Assembly: GCF_900110455.1 (NCBI RefSeq)
Contig: NZ_FOIS01000002.1
Coordinates: 186,001 to 250,000 of the forward strand
Length of the DNA stretch: 64,000 bases
Direction of reading: 5' to 3'
Source: Natrinema salifodinae
GTDB taxonomy: Archaea > Halobacteriota > Halobacteria > Halobacteriales > Natrialbaceae
Part shown: positions 10,142 to 36,906 of the stretch, one piece after another
Layout of the letters: each line of letters starts with the position of its first letter
Numbering within the stretch: position 1 is the stretch's first letter
Made by a program: the position numbers and the translations under genes
Notes under the pieces: model-generated
Told to the model about the DNA's origin: nothing
Seen by the model: only the letters and a program-made list of their open reading frames with translations
Database searches by the model: none

Positions 10142-11428
10142 TCACGCGTCAGCGCCGGCGAGCGCGAGCAACGCCGTCCCGAGCAGTCCCGCGACCCCCG
10201 CACCGAGGAACGCCGGCGTGTACGTTCCCGCGAGATCGTAGACGAGCCCGGCGGCCCAGGGCGCGACCAGGCCGGAAACGGCGAAGGACAGCGACACCAG
10301 GCCGAAGATCGCGTTCGGGTTGCGCGCGCCGAAGAGGTCGACCGTCAGCGGCGAGAGCAGGGCGCCGTTGCCTCCGTAAGCGATCCCGAAGACGACGGCG
10401 AAGGCGTACAACCCGACCGCGGAGTCCAGCAAGGGCAGACACAGCGTCGACGCGGCCATGATCGCCGAGCATCCGACGAACGTCCGGACACGGCCGAGCC
10501 GGTCGGCTAGGCCGCCGATGCCGATCCGGGCGGCGGCCGTCGTGGCGCCGATCGCCGCGAGCGCGAGCGCACCCGTCCCCTCGCCGAGCCCGACGTCGCC
10601 GGCGTAGGGGACGACGTGGACGAGCACGGCGTACAGCGTCCCGTAGACGAGCACCCAGCCCGCGAACACGAACAGGAACGAGCGGGAGGTCGCGACCGCG
10701 AGCAGTTCCGTCCGGTAGGTCGCCCAGTCCGGCGGCTCCCGATCCGGCACGCCCTCGGGGAACTCGGCGCCCGGCTCGACGCCGCTCGCGGCGGGATCGT
10801 CGGCGAACAGCGGCGTCACGGCCGCCACGGCGACCGTCGCGGCGAGGACGAGCGCCAGGAAGGCCAGGCGCCACTCGAGCACCCCGACGAGCGCGTTCGC
10901 GGCGGGCGACATCGCGACCATCCCGATGCCCAGCCCGGCGGTCGCGATCCCGGTCGCCAGGCCGCGCCGGCGCTGGAACCACCGCGGGACCGTGGCGTAG
11001 GAGACGACGTAGATCGCGCCCAGGCCGGCCGCCGTGACGACGCCGTAGGCGAGCAAGAGCGCGACGTACGAGGTCGTCTGGCTCGTCCAGAGGCCGCCGA
11101 GCGCGAGCGCCGCGACGCCGAACGCCAGCAGCCGCCGGACGCCGAATCGATCGGCGAGCACCCCCAGGATCGCCGCGGCGAGGTAGATCACGACCGTCTG
11201 GAGGGAGAAGACGAACGAGACGGCCGACCGGGAGACGCCGAGGTCCCGCTGCATCGGCCCGAGGAAGACCCCGAAGGCGTAGGAGAGCCCGAAGACGACG
11301 AACGCGCCGACGAACCCGCCGGCGACGACGTACCAGCCCCGGTAGACGTCGCGGTCGGGCGGCGCATCCGCCCCGTCGAGCACACCCGCAGGGCTTCGGG
11401 ATCGATCCGAGCCGCTGTCGCGTCGCAT
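10142..11428 (-). CDS. MFS transporter, OFA/MCT-like
   Basis: A 428-residue polytopic membrane protein with about 12 hydrophobic segments. It begins, after a charged N-terminus of about 30 residues, with RGWYVVAGGFVGAFVVFGLSY. The motif DRFGVRRLL after the second or third helix is the MFS loop 2-3 signature. The arrangement resembles the oxalate/formate antiporter and monocarboxylate branch of the superfamily, so an organic anion substrate is likely but not shown. It is divergently transcribed from an AtoE-type short-chain fatty acid transporter with only 62 bp between the start codons, which suggests linked regulation. Confidence 0.85.
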   Translation of the reverse strand: MRRDSGSDRSRSPAGVLDGADAPPDRDVYRGWYVVAGGFVGAFVVFGLSYAFGVFLGPMQRDLGVSRSAVSFVFSLQTVVIYLAAAILGVLADRFGVRRLLAFGVAALALGGLWTSQTTSYVALLLAYGVVTAAGLGAIYVVSYATVPRWFQRRRGLATGIATAGLGIGMVAMSPAANALVGVLEWRLAFLALVLAATVAVAAVTPLFADDPAASGVEPGAEFPEGVPDREPPDWATYRTELLAVATSRSFLFVFAGWVLVYGTLYAVLVHVVPYAGDVGLGEGTGALALAAIGATTAAARIGIGGLADRLGRVRTFVGCSAIMAASTLCLPLLDSAVGLYAFAVVFGIAYGGNGALLSPLTVDLFGARNPNAIFGLVSLSFAVSGLVAPWAAGLVYDLAGTYTPAFLGAGVAGLLGTALLALAGADA

Positions 11429-11490: not shown

Positions 11491-12939
11491 ATGTCATCGG
11501 TGGACGACGCGGCGGCGACCGGCAACGTCATCGAACGCGCGGGTAACCGGATCGCGGACGTCGTCGAGCGGTGGATGCCGAGCCCGTTCCTGTTCGCGAT
11601 CATCTTATCGTACGTCGTCTTTCTGGTCGGAATGGTCGTGGAAAATCAGGGGCCGTCGAACATGGTCATGTTCTGGTACGACGGGTTCTGGGCGTTCCTG
11701 GAGTTCGCGATGCAGATGGTCCTGATCATCATGACCGGGTTCGTAATCGCGTATCATCCGCGAGTCAACGACGCGCTCCAGCGCCTGGCGGCGATCCCGA
11801 ACACCGCCGGCCAGGCCGTCGTACTGGTCGGGACCGTCTCGATGGCGCTGGCCTGGGTCCACTGGGGACTGAGCCTGGTCGTCGGCGCGATCTTCGCCCG
11901 GGAGATGGGCACGGCCGCCTACCGGGAGGGGATCGCGGTTCACTACCCGCTGCTGTGCGTGGCGGGCTATATGGGGCTGGGGCTCACCTGGCACTGGGGT
12001 CTCTCGGGGTCTGCCCCGCTCTTGCTCGCGACGCCCGGCAACGAGTTCGTCGACCTCGGGATCGTCGACGGGCCGGTGGGTACGTCCGCGACGGTCTTCA
12101 GCGCGTACGCGCTCTCGCTCACCGCGCTGTCGATCGCCTTCGCGGCGGTCGTGCTGTACCTGCTGACGCCCCCGGCGGAGCGGTCGCGGGAGATCACCGA
12201 CTACATCCCGGAGGACGAACTGCTCGAGTCCTCGCCCGACGGTGGCGTCGACGATACCGCGGTCGACGACCGGGAGAGCGCGGCGAACGGCCGGCTGAAC
12301 GGCGATCGCCTCCCCGCCGAGCGCATCGACAACAGTCGGCTCCTCGGCGGGCTCATCGCGCTGACCGGCGTCGCGGTGATCGCCTGGGAGTTTTACACCC
12401 GAGGTCTCGCCGCCTTGAACCTGAACGTCCTGAACTTCGCGTTCCTGTTCGTCGGCCTGGCGATCTACACGCGACCGGCGGCCTACCGCGAGCGGTTCGG
12501 CGAGGCCGCGGAGGCCGCCGTCGGGATCATTCTCCTGTTCCCCTTCTTCGCGGGCATTCAGGGCATGATGAGCGGCTCCGGCCTGGCGGAGACGATGGCC
12601 CAGGCCCTGTTGGCGATCTCGACGCCCGAGACGTTCCCGGTGATCGCCTGGCTCACGGCCGCCATCGTCAACCTGTTCGTCCCCTCGGGCGGCGGCGAGT
12701 GGATCGTCCTCGGGCCGCCGGTCCTCGAGGCCGCCCAGGAGGTCGGGATCCCGGTCGGCCAGGCGACGATCGCCTACGCCGTCGGCGACGCGCACACGAA
12801 CCTGCTGAACCCGTTCTGGGCGCTGCCGCTGCTCGCGATCACGAAGATCCGCGCCCGGGAGATGTTCGGCTACGCCGTGGCGATGCTGCTGGCGCTGATT
12901 CCGTTCCTGACGGTCGCGTTGTACGCCTTGCCGTACTGA
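11491..12939 (+). CDS. AtoE-type short-chain fatty acid transporter
   Basis: A 482-residue membrane protein of the AtoE (TIGR00366) family, which in E. coli imports short-chain fatty acids such as butyrate and acetoacetate. It has about 12 hydrophobic segments. Recognisable family stretches are PSPFLFAIILSYVVFLVG, ALAWVHWGLSLVVGAIFARE and LFVPSGGGEWIVLGPP, and VGDAHTNLLNPFWALPLL near the C-terminus. A hydrophilic acidic loop around residues 230-275 is a haloarchaeal insertion. ATG at 11491 fits a leaderless promoter. Its product would feed acetyl-CoA metabolism, compatible with the methylaspartate-cycle genes elsewhere in the window. Confidence 0.88.
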   Translation: MSSVDDAAATGNVIERAGNRIADVVERWMPSPFLFAIILSYVVFLVGMVVENQGPSNMVMFWYDGFWAFLEFAMQMVLIIMTGFVIAYHPRVNDALQRLAAIPNTAGQAVVLVGTVSMALAWVHWGLSLVVGAIFAREMGTAAYREGIAVHYPLLCVAGYMGLGLTWHWGLSGSAPLLLATPGNEFVDLGIVDGPVGTSATVFSAYALSLTALSIAFAAVVLYLLTPPAERSREITDYIPEDELLESSPDGGVDDTAVDDRESAANGRLNGDRLPAERIDNSRLLGGLIALTGVAVIAWEFYTRGLAALNLNVLNFAFLFVGLAIYTRPAAYRERFGEAAEAAVGIILLFPFFAGIQGMMSGSGLAETMAQALLAISTPETFPVIAWLTAAIVNLFVPSGGGEWIVLGPPVLEAAQEVGIPVGQATIAYAVGDAHTNLLNPFWALPLLAITKIRAREMFGYAVAMLLALIPFLTVALYALPY

Positions 12940-13070: not shown

Positions 13071-13448
13071 TCACTCCGCCTCGAGCGCGCCCTCTTCGAG
13101 CCAGGAGCCGGCCCAGCACTCGATCTCCTCGAAGACCGGTTCGAGGGACTCGCCCTTGTCGGTGAGGCTGTAGTAGGTCGCGACGGGGGCGTCCTCCTCG
13201 ATGCGACGTTCGACGAAGCCCATCTCGCCGAGATCGTCGAGTACGCGCGAAAGGGTCCGCGCGTTCGCGTCGGTCGAGCGCTTGAGTTCGTTAAAGCGCT
13301 GTTCGCCGTCCAGCAGTTCGTGCAACACCGCCAGGCGCCACTGGGAACCGATCTGCTCGAGGGAGGCGATGACGGGGCAGGCGTCGTCGCGGTCGTGGCC
13401 GCGCTGGTCCTGCTCTCGATCGCGGGGTTGCGTCTGTGGAGAAGACAT
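13071..13448 (-). CDS. HxlR family winged-helix regulator
   Basis: A 125-residue DNA-binding protein with the HxlR (MarR-like winged helix) pattern: CPVIASLEQIGSQWRLAVLHELL, then RFNELKRS, then ARTLSRVLDDLGEMGFVERR, and the wing VATYYSLTDKG. The single cysteine at the start of the domain (ACPV) is where several HxlR members sense redox or aldehyde stress. It is convergent with the AtoE-type gene and not clearly in an operon. Its target is unknown; the upstream SRPBCC gene is on the same strand after about 200 nt. Confidence 0.88.
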   Translation of the reverse strand: MSSPQTQPRDREQDQRGHDRDDACPVIASLEQIGSQWRLAVLHELLDGEQRFNELKRSTDANARTLSRVLDDLGEMGFVERRIEEDAPVATYYSLTDKGESLEPVFEEIECWAGSWLEEGALEAE

Positions 13449-13646: not shown

Positions 13647-14081
13647 TCAGGCCGCCGACGGCTCCGTTCGCGCCTGGTCGCCCTCGAGCACCGTCTCGAG
13701 ATTCTCGAGCGCGCGCAGACAGATCGGCACGTACCCCGTCCCGTGGAGCGGCAGTTCGAACGCGACCCGACAGCGCCCCTCGCCGAGGTCGTCGACGCGG
13801 TGGCCGGCGGCCGGAATTCCCGAGACGCGCCAGGTCCAGCGCCGCTCCGTTCGCGAGGTGATCCGGAAGGGGACCCAGGCGCCCGGAACCCGAATTCGGC
13901 CGGTCGTGTCGGGTTGGATCCGCCGATCCGTCGATTCGACACCGATCACGATCGGCGACCAGGCGGGCCACCTGGTGGTGTCGACGAGGGCCTCCCAGGC
14001 GTCGGCCGCGGGGGCGGTGAAAACGTGCGAGACCTCGATGCGGCGGCCGTCCGGGGTGTGCGTGGTCCGGACTCGGGTCAT
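13647..14081 (-). CDS. SRPBCC (START-like) family protein
   Basis: A 144-residue protein beginning MTRVRTTHTPDGRRIEVSH. The pattern VSHVFTAPAADAWEALVDTTRWPAWSPIV is typical of polyketide cyclase/dehydrase-like SRPBCC domains, which form a hydrophobic ligand pocket. It has the usual family length. The frame is open further upstream, but ATG at 14081 gives the right N-terminus for the domain. The ligand is unknown. It sits between the HxlR gene and a region with possible decayed coding sequence. Confidence 0.75.
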   Translation of the reverse strand: MTRVRTTHTPDGRRIEVSHVFTAPAADAWEALVDTTRWPAWSPIVIGVESTDRRIQPDTTGRIRVPGAWVPFRITSRTERRWTWRVSGIPAAGHRVDDLGEGRCRVAFELPLHGTGYVPICLRALENLETVLEGDQARTEPSAA

Positions 14082-14449
14082 CGTCGATAGTACGCGCTCC
14101 TCGGCAATGTGGGTTTGCACGGGCGGCAGATCTCCCGGCCGGCGCCGGACCGTCGCCAGGCGCGATGCCGTACGCGGCGGCCTGGTCGCCGCGACCGTTC
14201 TCCCCGAGCACCTCACCAACACCGCCGCGACGTTCGCGGTCGGCACTCCGACGGCGGCGGCCTGGGGTCGCCCGCCGCGTACTGGGTGCTCGCGGCCGGC
14301 GCGTTCGTCGCAATCAAATGGGACGTCGAGCGGATGAATTCGGACCTGCTGGTGGCGAATCGGGCGATCGGGCAAACATACACGCTTATTGATAGTACAG
14401 CGATAGCAGATACTAAACACGTCCTCGCTCTACGGATGCGTACCAGACA
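14082..14449. other. Intergenic region with a possible decayed reading frame and the FNT promoter
   Basis: About 370 nt. Near 14160-14380 two different plus-strand frames give protein-like pieces (a stretch with GGLVAATVLPEHLTNTAATFAVGT, then in another frame AAYWVLAAGAFVAIKWDVE), as if a membrane-protein gene had been frameshifted. The right end, 14384-14420, is AT-rich with TATA-like CTTATTGATA and TACTAAAC that could drive the downstream channel gene. Confidence 0.3.
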
Positions 14450-16324
14450 ATGAGCGAACCCGATCCACCCGAGCAGGAACGACCGGACCGCGATCCCCCC
14501 AAGCAGGAACGACCGGACCGCGATCCACCCGAACAGGAGCAGGTCAGGCAGGCGGTCGAACGGTCCAGAAGCGGTGCCCCGGCGGTCGGTGCGGTCGTCC
14601 GCGACCGCTTCTCGGCCGACGAGGTCTTCCAGCGCATCGTCGCAGCGGCCGACGAGGAGGTCACCTCCGGCAGCCGCGAACTCTTCTTCAGCGGCATCGC
14701 CGCCGGCTTCGCGATCACGATCACCGTCTTACTGTACGCCTCGTTGTACGGCGAGACCGGCGGCCATCCGATTCTGAGCGCACTGTTGTATCCGCTCGGC
14801 TTCATCTATATCATCATCGGCGGCTACCAACTGTACACCGAAAACACGCTCCCGCCGGTCGCGCTCACCTTGGAGCGGATCGCCAGCCTCCCCGCCCTGT
14901 TGCGCCACTGGACGATCGTTCTCGCCGGCAACTTTACCGGCGGCGCGATCGGCGCGGCGGTGCTCGCCTGGGGCGGCGTCTTCTCCCCCGAAGCGGCCGA
15001 GGCGGCGCGCTATCTCGGCACTCACGGCCCGGAGACGGCGTGGCTCGACCTGTTCTTCAAGGCTGCCTTCGCCGGCCTGATCGTCGCGGGCGTCGTCTGG
15101 GTGGAGTACGCCGCCCGCGAGACGGTCGCCAGGATCGTGATCGTCTACATGGCCTTCCTCGCGATCCCGATCGGGAACCTGTTTCACGTGGTCACCTCCT
15201 TCACCGAGATGGCCTACGTCGTCTTCATCGGCGAACTCTCCCTGTACGTTGGCCTGGTTCACTTCGTGCTCCCGGTGGCGCTCGGCAACACCATCGGCGG
15301 CATTTTGCTGGTGACCGTCGTCAACTACTTCCAGACGAGCGAACGCCGCCTCGAGTCGGCCCGATTCGAGGGGACCAATCGACAGCTCTCGCTGCGGGAG
15401 TGGCTGTTCGGGAGCTACGCTGGCCGGTCGTACGTCCCCCTGATCGACACCGCCGAGGTCTCGGCGGTCGAGGACGGCGAAACCTACCGCGTGCTGGTTC
15501 CGATCGCCAACCCCCGCACCGAGTCGCGGATCGTCGACTTCGCCGCGACGCTGGCCGACGCCCACGAGAACGCGGTCGTCCACGCCGTTCACATCATCCA
15601 GATGCCCGACCGGCGGTCCATGCGGTACGGCTCCGACCGCAACGAACGGATTATCTCCGAATCCGACCGACTGATGGAGGGGGTCCGCGAGACGATCGAA
15701 CCCTACGACGTCGAGTGCGAGACCTCGACGGTCGTCTCCCACCGTTCGTTTGAGGACGTCTTCGACACCGCCGAGCGCGAGCGGGCCGACCTGGTCGTCC
15801 TGAACTGGGGCGACAACCAGCCGTGGGACGCCGGTCACACCGAGGGCCGGATCAGCAAATTCACGAGCGACCTCCCCTGTGACTTCCTCGTCCTCAAGGA
15901 CCGGGATCTGGACACCTCGCGGATCCTCCTGCCGACCGCCGGCGGGCCGGACTCGGACCTGAGCGCCGAGGTCGCCCGCACGCTCGAGCAGGCCGACGGG
16001 TCGGACGTGAATCTCTTGCACGTCGTCAAGAATCCCGAAGACCGCGCGGAGGGCCGGACGTTCCTCGCGAATTGGGCCGCCGAGCACGACCTCGAGAACG
16101 CCGAGCTCACGATCGATGCCACCGGCGACGTCGAGAAGGCGATCTGTCGGGAGGCCGCCGACAGCTCGCTCGTGATCATCGGCGCGACGGAGTCGGGACT
16201 GCTCTCGCGGCTGGTGAGGGACTCCCTGCACATGGACGTCGTCAACGAAGTCGACAGTTCGGTCCTGCTCGCCGAACGGCCCAGCAACGGGAACATTCTC
16301 AAGCGACTGTTGGGTCGTCCGTAA
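14450..16324 (+). CDS. Formate/nitrite transporter fused to two universal stress protein domains
   Basis: A 624-residue fusion. Residues 1-30 are a charged proline-rich leader encoded by 30-bp tandem repeats. Residues of about 55-300 form an FNT-type channel with about six membrane helices (from FSADEVFQRIVAAADEEV to GNTIGGILLVTVVNYFQ). After a linker, two UspA-like domains follow (about 350-475 and 480-605), the second ending LVIIGATESGLLSRLVRDSL and VNEVDSSVLLAER. FNT channels pass formate, nitrite or similar small anions; USP domains often bind nucleotide and gate or regulate transporters (inference here). The substrate is not determinable from sequence. The gene stands alone. Confidence 0.87.
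   Translation: MSEPDPPEQERPDRDPPKQERPDRDPPEQEQVRQAVERSRSGAPAVGAVVRDRFSADEVFQRIVAAADEEVTSGSRELFFSGIAAGFAITITVLLYASLYGETGGHPILSALLYPLGFIYIIIGGYQLYTENTLPPVALTLERIASLPALLRHWTIVLAGNFTGGAIGAAVLAWGGVFSPEAAEAARYLGTHGPETAWLDLFFKAAFAGLIVAGVVWVEYAARETVARIVIVYMAFLAIPIGNLFHVVTSFTEMAYVVFIGELSLYVGLVHFVLPVALGNTIGGILLVTVVNYFQTSERRLESARFEGTNRQLSLREWLFGSYAGRSYVPLIDTAEVSAVEDGETYRVLVPIANPRTESRIVDFAATLADAHENAVVHAVHIIQMPDRRSMRYGSDRNERIISESDRLMEGVRETIEPYDVECETSTVVSHRSFEDVFDTAERERADLVVLNWGDNQPWDAGHTEGRISKFTSDLPCDFLVLKDRDLDTSRILLPTAGGPDSDLSAEVARTLEQADGSDVNLLHVVKNPEDRAEGRTFLANWAAEHDLENAELTIDATGDVEKAICREAADSSLVIIGATESGLLSRLVRDSLHMDVVNEVDSSVLLAERPSNGNILKRLLGRP
14461..14545 (+). repeat. 30-bp tandem repeat, about 2.8 copies
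   Basis: Units at 14461-14490 and 14491-14520 differ at three positions, with a partial third unit at 14521-14545. Being a multiple of three, the repeat stays in frame and encodes repeated QERPDRDPPx at the N-terminus of the FNT-USP protein. Copy number is likely to vary between strains. Confidence 0.8.
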
Positions 16325-16586: not shown

Positions 16587-18014
16587 ATGGTACGTGAGAG
16601 TTGGGCGAGTCGCGCCGGATTCATCCTGGCCGCGGTCGGAAGCGCGATCGGGCTGGGGAACATCTGGCGGTTCCCGTGGATGACCGCGGAGAACGGCGGA
16701 AGCGCCTTTCTGATTTTGTATCTGCTCATTGTCCTCGTCGTCGGGGTGCCGGGGTTGCTGGCCGCGTTCGTAATCGGCCGACGGTCGAATCGGAACCCAG
16801 TCGGGGCGTTCAAATCGCTCGCCGGATCGCGTTTCTGGACGGCGTTGGGCGCGCTCTGTGTCGTCACCTCGATTCTGCTGATGTCGTTCTACAGCGTCGT
16901 CGGCGGGTGGATCCTTCGGTACTTCCTCGAGAGCGCGACGGGAGCCTATTTCGCGGCTCCTGAAACCCACTTCGCGGCGATCAGCTACGGTGCCGAAGCG
17001 TTCGGCTACCAACTCGCCGTCCTCGCGGCCACGTCTCTGATCGTCGCCGCGGGGATCAGACGCGGCATCGAGGCGACGACGAAGGTGATGATGCCTGGCG
17101 TCGTCGTATTGCTCGTTGGACTCGCGATCTGGGCGGCCCAGCAGCCCAACGCCGCGCAGGGATACGAGTTCTACCTCGAATTCGACGGCGCCTACCTCGC
17201 GGAGAACTTCCTGTCGGTGCTGGGATCGGCCGCCGGCCAGGCGCTGTTCACCCTCTCGATCGGCAGCGGAACGATGATCACCTACGCCTCCTACGTCAAC
17301 GACGACCGCTCGCTGCCCCTCGACGCCTCACTCATCGCCGTGTTCAATCTCGGCATCGGTATCTTGGCCGGTCTCGTGGTGTTCCCGTTGCTGTTCTCGT
17401 TCACGCCGGGACCGACCGAGGGCGGCCCCGGCGCCCTGTTCGTCGGGATCGCCAGTGCGTTCGCGAGCCTGCCCGGCGGGCGACTCCTCGGCGCGGTCTT
17501 CTTCCTCGTCGTTCTCCTCGCAGCCCTCACGAGTCTGATCAGCATGCTCGAGATTCCGGTCTCGTTTCTGGTCGACGAGTTCGATCTCGAGCGCTCGACG
17601 GCGACCCGGGGGCTATTCGCGCTGGTCGTACTCACCGGCGGCGTGAACGCGTTCAGCCCCGCGGTGTTTACGCTGTTCGCGGACCACCTCGTCGATCTCC
17701 TCTTGGTGCTCGGTCTGACCGGGTTCATGGTGTACACAGCCTGGGTGCTCGGTCCGGCCGCGATCGAGGAGTACCTCGAAGGCGCAGGGCCGCTCTCGCG
17801 CCCGCTGGTGATCCCGTGGCGGTACGCGATCGGGACCCTCTTCCCGGCGTTTCTCCTCTTTACGTTCTACGCCGACGTCGCGGCCTTGATCGGGTTCTCA
17901 ACGGGACCGGGACCGTTGTTGGTCGCGACGCTGCTGACGGTGCTGGTGCTCGTGGTAGTGGCCCGTCGTTCTGTCTCCGAAACCCGACCGCAACCGAGCG
18001 AGAGCACGGACTGA
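16587..18014 (+). CDS. Sodium-dependent transporter, NSS/SNF family
   Basis: A 475-residue neurotransmitter:sodium symporter family protein. The N-terminal signature SRAGFILAAVGSAIGLGNIWRFPW covers helix 1, whose unwound part binds Na+ and substrate in LeuT. About 11-12 membrane helices follow, including the helix 6 region TLSIGSGTMITYASYV. Prokaryotic members import amino acids with Na+, which suits a halophile, but the substrate here is not known. The gene is monocistronic, with a TATA box just upstream and a hairpin-rich spacer downstream. Confidence 0.88.
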   Translation: MVRESWASRAGFILAAVGSAIGLGNIWRFPWMTAENGGSAFLILYLLIVLVVGVPGLLAAFVIGRRSNRNPVGAFKSLAGSRFWTALGALCVVTSILLMSFYSVVGGWILRYFLESATGAYFAAPETHFAAISYGAEAFGYQLAVLAATSLIVAAGIRRGIEATTKVMMPGVVVLLVGLAIWAAQQPNAAQGYEFYLEFDGAYLAENFLSVLGSAAGQALFTLSIGSGTMITYASYVNDDRSLPLDASLIAVFNLGIGILAGLVVFPLLFSFTPGPTEGGPGALFVGIASAFASLPGGRLLGAVFFLVVLLAALTSLISMLEIPVSFLVDEFDLERSTATRGLFALVVLTGGVNAFSPAVFTLFADHLVDLLLVLGLTGFMVYTAWVLGPAAIEEYLEGAGPLSRPLVIPWRYAIGTLFPAFLLFTFYADVAALIGFSTGPGPLLVATLLTVLVLVVVARRSVSETRPQPSESTD

Positions 18015-35898: not shown

Positions 35899-36906
35899 AT
35901 GACTAACGCAACGACACCCATCGAAGCGACGTTTGAACTCCAGCGCCAGTCGATCGAACAGAGCCAGCGGCTCGTCGAACAGAGCCTCACGTTTCAGGAG
36001 AACGCGGCCGAGACGATCCTGCGAAACGGGCTCGCGATCCAGCGCAGCACGCAGCGCCAGGGAACCGAACTCGCCAGGCAGTTCCTGGACGCCCACCTCG
36101 ACGCGCTCGAGTCGGCGCTCGACGAAGACGCGTTCGACGTTCGGGCGACCGTCGACGAGCAGTTCGAGGACGGGACCGAACAGACCCAGCAACTGCTGAA
36201 CGAGCAGTTCGAGCAGGGAAGCGAGCTATTCCAGCAGCTGCTGCACGCGCAGTTCGACGCGCTCGAATCCGCGCTCGACGGCGACGGGTTCGACGTCCGA
36301 TCGACCGTCGACGAGCAGTTCGACGAGTTCGAGCAGACCCAGGAGGAAGCCTGGAACGAGTTCGAGACGGAGTTCCTCGAGGCAGTCGGCGAGTTGACCG
36401 AGCGGCAGCGGGCGCTGCTCGCGGAGTCGACCGAGTCGATGCTCGAGGCACAGCGCGATACCGAACAGCAGACCGTCGAGGGCGTCCGCCGCGCCGAGGA
36501 GGCCGCCGAGACGGTCCAGCAGCAGACCGAGGACGTCGCCGACACCGTCCAGCAGTCGACCGAAGCGGTCGCCCGCACGACCCAGGAGTCAACCCAGTCG
36601 ATCGCCCAGACGAGTCAGGAGGGCGCGCAGGACCTGGTCGGTGAGGCCGCCGAGGCCACCGAGGAGGTCGCTACCGAGACGACCGACGCGATCGAGACCG
36701 CCGCTGAAGGCGGGACCGAGGTCGTCGAGGAGAACCTGCAGGCGATCGAGGGCGTCGGCCAGACCTACGCCGACCGCCTCGCCGAGGTCGGCATCGAGAC
36801 GATCGGCGACCTCGCGGAGGCGCAGGCCCACACCGTCGCCAGCGCCGCGGAGATCTCGGAGGACAACGCCGAGGAGTGGATCGAGGCCGCACAGGCCCAG
36901 AAGTAA
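35899..36906 (+). CDS. Phasin-like coiled-coil repeat protein with C-terminal helix-hairpin-helix
   Basis: A 335-residue, Gln/Glu-rich, almost wholly helical protein without cysteine or membrane segment. A 31-residue unit occurs twice, at about 66-96 and 118-148 (LDALESALDEDAFDVRATVDEQF and FDALESALDGDGFDVRSTVDEQF). The middle is a long Thr/Gln/Glu amphipathic helix (VQQQTEDVADTVQQSTEAV). The last 56 residues are a helix-hairpin-helix domain (AIEGVGQTYADRLAEVGIETIGDL). The helical part resembles phasins that coat polyhydroxyalkanoate granules; the HhH could bind DNA. ATG at 35899 (MTNATTPIEA) is preferred over a TTG at 35839. Confidence 0.7.
   Translation: MTNATTPIEATFELQRQSIEQSQRLVEQSLTFQENAAETILRNGLAIQRSTQRQGTELARQFLDAHLDALESALDEDAFDVRATVDEQFEDGTEQTQQLLNEQFEQGSELFQQLLHAQFDALESALDGDGFDVRSTVDEQFDEFEQTQEEAWNEFETEFLEAVGELTERQRALLAESTESMLEAQRDTEQQTVEGVRRAEEAAETVQQQTEDVADTVQQSTEAVARTTQESTQSIAQTSQEGAQDLVGEAAEATEEVATETTDAIETAAEGGTEVVEENLQAIEGVGQTYADRLAEVGIETIGDLAEAQAHTVASAAEISEDNAEEWIEAAQAQK

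Follow-up and report, generated by a model that had tools for sequence, protein, structure and literature searches.

Why a membrane channel of the formate/nitrite transporter (FNT) family should carry two universal stress protein (USP) domains on the same chain, and what this soluble half might do for the channel, is the question raised by a gene of Natrinema salifodinae in the 64,000-nucleotide stretch of DNA analysed here (the window). The original prediction described a single polypeptide joining an FNT channel to a tandem USP pair, and this was confirmed: one open reading frame runs from ATG to stop and contains both Pfam domains. The main parts of the gene are as follows.

14450..16324, + strand: FNT-USP-USP fusion gene, 624 aa, ATG start, stop included
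14621..15331, + strand: FNT channel domain, residues 58-294 (Pfam, structural alignment)
15332..15478, + strand: linker past the last transmembrane helix, residues 295-343
15479..15895, + strand: first USP domain, residues 344-482 (Pfam, AlphaFold2, structural alignment)
15911..16288, + strand: second USP domain, residues 488-613 (Pfam, AlphaFold2, structural alignment)

In the Pfam search, Form_Nir_trans (PF01226) covered residues 58-294 over the complete model (1-240 of 240) with an E-value of 1.5e-48 and 165.8 bits against a cut-off of 34.6. Usp (PF00582) was matched in two stretches, the better of them at residues 347-453 (E 1.4e-12). AlphaFold2, supplied with an alignment of 30 fusion homologues, predicted an FNT-like helical bundle followed by two complete USP alpha/beta folds, in agreement with the tandem pair proposed from the sequence. 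Confidence in the full-length model was moderate (mean pLDDT 66.5, pTM 0.48), with most of the USP part at 80-90, and the placement of the channel relative to the soluble cassette is not readable from the model. Prediction of the cassette alone from a mixed alignment brought no gain in confidence (mean pLDDT 66.0).

Structural likeness was judged from single-domain VIA-align alignments only. Residues 69-298 of the model aligned to FNT structures with Z values of 20-22.5, including HSC (3tds, Z 22.5) and FocA (3klz, Z 22.4), while residues 344-613 aligned to tandem USP-like structures with Z values of 16-18.6. The top rows of a Foldseek search were whole cotransporters with an rmsd of about 20 Å across both halves, and these were disregarded.

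The prediction had also named a frameshift or assembly error separating the two domains in related genomes as a danger to its reading. Full-length homologues without an internal stop turned up in 72 of the family's 125 genomes, and every one of the 29 genomes of the genus has one. Of 391 Halobacteria genomes sampled, about 236 carry the fusion, counted as genomes with a best E-value below 1e-199. Identity over the whole length was 85% for the Natrinema zhouii homologue, and was 74% in the full-length relative from Haloterrigena salina (L004) and 64% in that from Halorubrum ezzemoulense (L005). The whole fusion was also present on ten plasmid records from Natrinema, Haladaptatus, Halocatena, Salinigranum and Halobaculum. 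That annotation or assembly merged two genes is therefore a practically negligible explanation, as uninterrupted homologues with 55-86% identity come from many families and independent assemblies. The FNT channel and the tandem USP pair belong to one intact polypeptide. Two Halorubrum-type relatives, L053:4635-6866 (-) and L005:5974-8100 (+), have frames that extend about 90-120 residues past the second USP domain, possibly as an extra C-terminal tail.

Across the sampled genomes of the phylum, full-length matches were confined to the order, with none in other classes. A 52-row tree built on the FNT domain required two changes of the fused or cassette-free label, compared with a mean of 17 after shuffling, and these were read as the cassette having been acquired once and lost once (in L061). 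On this tree the origin of the fusion is near-single.

Cassette-free relatives accompany the fusion in some genomes, where a close paralogue occurs beside it (e.g., G049, G050, G094 and G104). The genome of N. salifodinae itself carries a second, cassette-free FNT gene outside the window (L002, G000:C3:708249-708953, 333 aa), with about 52% identity to the fusion in the channel domain. The persistence of cassette-free FNT orthologues means that the cassette is not required for the channel as such. Natural versions with and without the cassette, sometimes in one genome, offer a clean system for determining the effect of USP domains on membrane transport. Each of eight cassette-free paralogues in the family (L062-L069) is adjoined by a single-domain USP gene that converges on the FNT gene.

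This agrees with the wording of Anderson et al. 2011, who, in the passage concerned, described several haloarchaeal FNT transporters as fused or adjacent to UspA domains (Htur_2705, Hlac_2299, NP6264A, HQ1451A and Hmuk_1674), and who also described APC-UspA fusions (PMC3102087). A literature search by one of these locus tags returned that paper alone. Fusions with permeases and exchangers are listed in a 2025 review of archaeal USPs, in which formate and nitrite go unmentioned (PMC12159084). The association and class of the fusions described in that 2011 passage show no essential difference from the present gene; the FNT-UspA architecture had thus been described before and does not constitute a new system, and the value of the analysis lies in making the question of the cassette testable. 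Beyond that passage, the additions are a YfdC-like pore, the near-single origin, a cassette common to FNT channels and APC permeases, and the absence of the canonical nucleotide motif.

The pore was compared with characterized FNT channels through HMMER alignments to solved FNT chains and the subfamily signatures of PMC5525234. The Vibrio FocA chain 3kly served as a check on the numbering; its K155, N171 and H208 lie one below their E. coli counterparts. Two sites are central.

15185..15187, + strand: pore histidine H246 (= FocA H209), invariant in 30 fusion homologues
14834..14845, + strand: omega-loop residues 129-132 (Y-T-E-N), with E131 at the FocA S92 position, a YfdC-subfamily signature

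Together with H246, T130 (FocA T91) and L128 (L89) are invariant in the 30 homologues, and the FNT fold, pore His, Thr and omega-loop Leu are held in common with FocA, HSC and LciA, which differ in having no USP domains and other constriction residues. Further equivalences are Y114 to F75 and T249 to A212. The published signatures of the YfdC group comprise Glu at S92, Gly at N172, aromatic residues at L79 and N254, a non-Phe hydrophobic residue at F202 and a charged, mostly basic, residue at G86, and the uncharacterised YfdC groups include most archaeal FNT members (PMC5525234). The fusion shares F118 (L79), E131 (S92), G209 (N172), I239 (F202) and F272 (N254), as well as Asn at T93, with this subfamily. 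It differs in its C-terminal USP cassette, in Thr at A212, where most fusion relatives have Val, and in G125 at the G86 position, an invariant glycine in the 30 homologues in place of the charged residue. Because of G125, the pore is labelled YfdC-like and not filed as YfdC. The NCBIfam equivalog cut-offs for FocA (TIGR04060, 68.9 of 290.1 bits) and NirC (24.8 of 293) were not reached.

From these residues the protein is an FNT family member with a YfdC-like pore. The name formate/nitrite channel given to it at first therefore holds for the superfamily and not for the substrate, since a YfdC-type pore does not allow formate or nitrite to be called from sequence. The genes around the fusion are as follows.

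10145-11428, - strand: MFS transporter, upstream of the fusion
11491-12936, + strand: short-chain fatty acid transporter, upstream (E 1.6e-123)
13074-13448, - strand: HxlR regulator, upstream
13650-14090, - strand: SRPBCC-type protein, upstream
16587-18011, + strand: SNF-type sodium symporter, downstream

A run of transporter genes (MFS, short-chain fatty acid and SNF) thus flanks the fusion between window positions 10145 and 18011. When open reading frames around about 24 fusion loci were clustered, no common neighbour appeared except the fusion and its spurious overlapping frames, and selected neighbours had unrelated functions by Pfam. A conserved operon partner was accordingly dismissed for these loci.

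Two substrates were weighed. Formate is possible but not favoured: the channel would feed folate or purine formylation, a role suggested in the passage of Anderson et al. 2011 on these transporters (PMC3102087) and one that would go with whatever the cassette does. Two cassette-free relatives (L088 and L090, family f3, genus g36) adjoin a Formyl_trans_N + AICARFT gene, in line with that proposal, but no such neighbour occurs in the window or at the examined fusion loci, formate-tetrahydrofolate ligase (PF01268) had no match in the genome of N. salifodinae, and the pore is of neither FocA nor FdhC type. Uptake of nitrite for assimilation appears unlikely. The same genome contains three NIR_SIR-type reductase genes, but this family also takes in sulfite reductases, none of the three lies near the fusion, and the pore is not of NirC type. 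Natrinema sp. J7-2 uses nitrite as its sole nitrogen source, with an FNT gene as the cited candidate (PMC3402447); as the N. salifodinae genome encodes another FNT protein besides the fusion, the fusion may not be the counterpart of the J7-2 gene.

The other part of the original prediction, that the USP half might sense nucleotide for the channel, found no support in the cassette sequences. The position concerned lies in the second USP domain.

16181..16225, + strand: degenerate nucleotide-motif position GATESGLLSRLVRDS, residues 578-592, replacing G-2x-G-9x-G(S/T)

The canonical G-2x-G-9x-G(S/T) motif was absent from all 56 fusion cassettes and all 15 related cassettes, whereas it was present in nine of nine USP genes near cassette-free FNT paralogues, which served as a positive control. 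A GATExGxxxRxxxxS-type sequence occupies its place in the second domain, retaining the first Gly and the terminal Ser. Canonical USPs have an acidic residue after the first strand, and this residue is replaced in both domains (VPIANP and LPTAGG). Absence from 56 of 56 against presence in nine of nine leaves nucleotide gating unsupported and makes canonical ATP sensing an improbable role for the cassette. Gating of the channel by energy state, through adenine nucleotides bound to the pair, seems improbable in view of these differences, although two residues of the motif are kept, ATP binding is common among USPs, the tandem USP TTHA0350 is an ATP binder that has no recognisable motif (PMC12159084), and ATP/ADP binding occurs in the USP-like C-terminal domain of human KCC1 (PMC8280820).

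Near one of the cassette-free FNT genes, L065:3609-4901 (-) encodes a 410-aa protein with two canonical-motif USP domains and a C-terminal Cys-rich stretch, CRSGGCVNCAAVC, that resembles a 2Fe-2S ferredoxin domain.

Relatives of the cassette occur on other proteins. Residues 338-624 match the cassette at the C-terminus of haloarchaeal APC permeases with about 45-58% identity (about 285 residues compared), and stand-alone tandem USPs match at the same level. The APC relatives are AA_permease + Usp proteins by Pfam, and one is encoded in the genome of N. salifodinae at G000:C3:357116. They carry the same kind of tandem-USP cassette, whereas their membrane domain is unrelated and their linker different: the linker of the fusion is conserved among fusions and unlike that of the permeases, and the common part starts at Y-R-V-L-V-P-x-A/S-N-P-R-T-E. 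VSHRSFE and TAGGPDSDLSAE are conserved in both kinds of cassette. In a quick tree of cassettes the FNT cassettes did not form one clade, a single clade was not rejected (p-AU 0.60), and the direction of transfer between FNT and APC proteins was not settled by this tree.

The best solved match of the cassette was 3g40 (Z 18.6, rmsd 3.2 over 234 residues), the cytoplasmic domain of a cation-chloride cotransporter from a prokaryote. Rv2623 (Z 17.9) and the C-terminal regulatory domain of KCC-1 (6vwa, Z 17.9) followed. Cation-chloride cotransporters (3g40, KCC, NKCC) resemble the fusion in having a tandem USP-like fold C-terminal on a transporter, but identity is only about 15% and their membrane part has the APC fold, not the FNT fold. 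A fold common to the cassette and the cotransporter domains demonstrates no function. Together with the presence of the cassette on APC permeases, the fold match to the regulatory domains of animal cation-chloride cotransporters would allow a haloarchaeal model to bear on a wider question.

On balance we lean towards a haloarchaeal FNT channel whose C-terminal tandem-USP cassette would serve as a cytoplasmic regulatory platform, probably not as a canonical ATP sensor; a regulated anion channel is the likely nature of the protein. The channel half, with its YfdC-like pore, would be expected to form a pentamer and to pass a small monovalent anion, candidates being formate, nitrite, acetate-like and bicarbonate-like ions. 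The C-terminus and the cassette would lie in the cytoplasm. By analogy with the USP-like C-terminal domains of cation-chloride cotransporters, the cassette might modulate channel opening or assembly upon a ligand, a partner protein or the state of the cell, and with APC permeases as a further parallel, the gating or regulatory role suggested for the soluble half is plausible.

A cassette acting mainly in assembly, stability or partner docking, with no effect on gating, is a rather doubtful alternative. Tandem USPs oligomerise, AF1760 and TTHA0350 being dimers of tandem dimers (PMC12159084), and occurrence on unrelated transporters fits a generic docking role. VSHRSFE and TAGGPDSDLSAE, shared by the FNT and APC cassettes, suggest instead a specific common interaction, but docking would fit these motifs too and they are not decisive. 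We put forward tentatively that the cassette is a swappable regulatory module of FNT channels and APC permeases, one that would sense another cytoplasmic signal without canonical nucleotide binding. If true, two unrelated transporter families would answer one signal through shared invariant residues.

The N-terminal end of the fusion differs from the rest of the protein in its conservation, which begins only at about residue 31 (VRxAVERSRSGAPA).

14450..14569, + strand: N-terminal acidic, proline-rich tail, residues 1-40, pLDDT 30-40
14461..14538, + strand: 30-bp tandem repeat, 2.6 copies, encoding (P)PEQERPDRDP-type units (TRF score 135)

An N-terminus encoded by a 30-bp tandem repeat had been predicted, and both TRF and a period-30 self-identity of 0.90 bear this out; 2000 shuffles, each scored at every period from 6 to 39, gave at most 0.65. 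The tail encoded by the repeat reads MSEPDPPEQERPDRDPPKQERPDRDPPEQEQ and, judging from the structural model, is probably disordered. The expected variation in repeat length, originally put forward for strains, was seen between species: counted to a common reference point, the tails found in the genus are 43, 50, 51 or 53 residues long, differing by about one repeat unit, and their sequence decays fast. The acidic tails of other genera, about 20-60 residues long, are unrelated and lack the repeat. These comparisons characterise the repeat as a young feature of a fast-evolving tail, without sign of function. A second tandem repeat of frame-keeping length, with a 33-bp unit in 2.1 copies, lies at window positions 36494-36573 and possibly encodes a low-complexity repeat.
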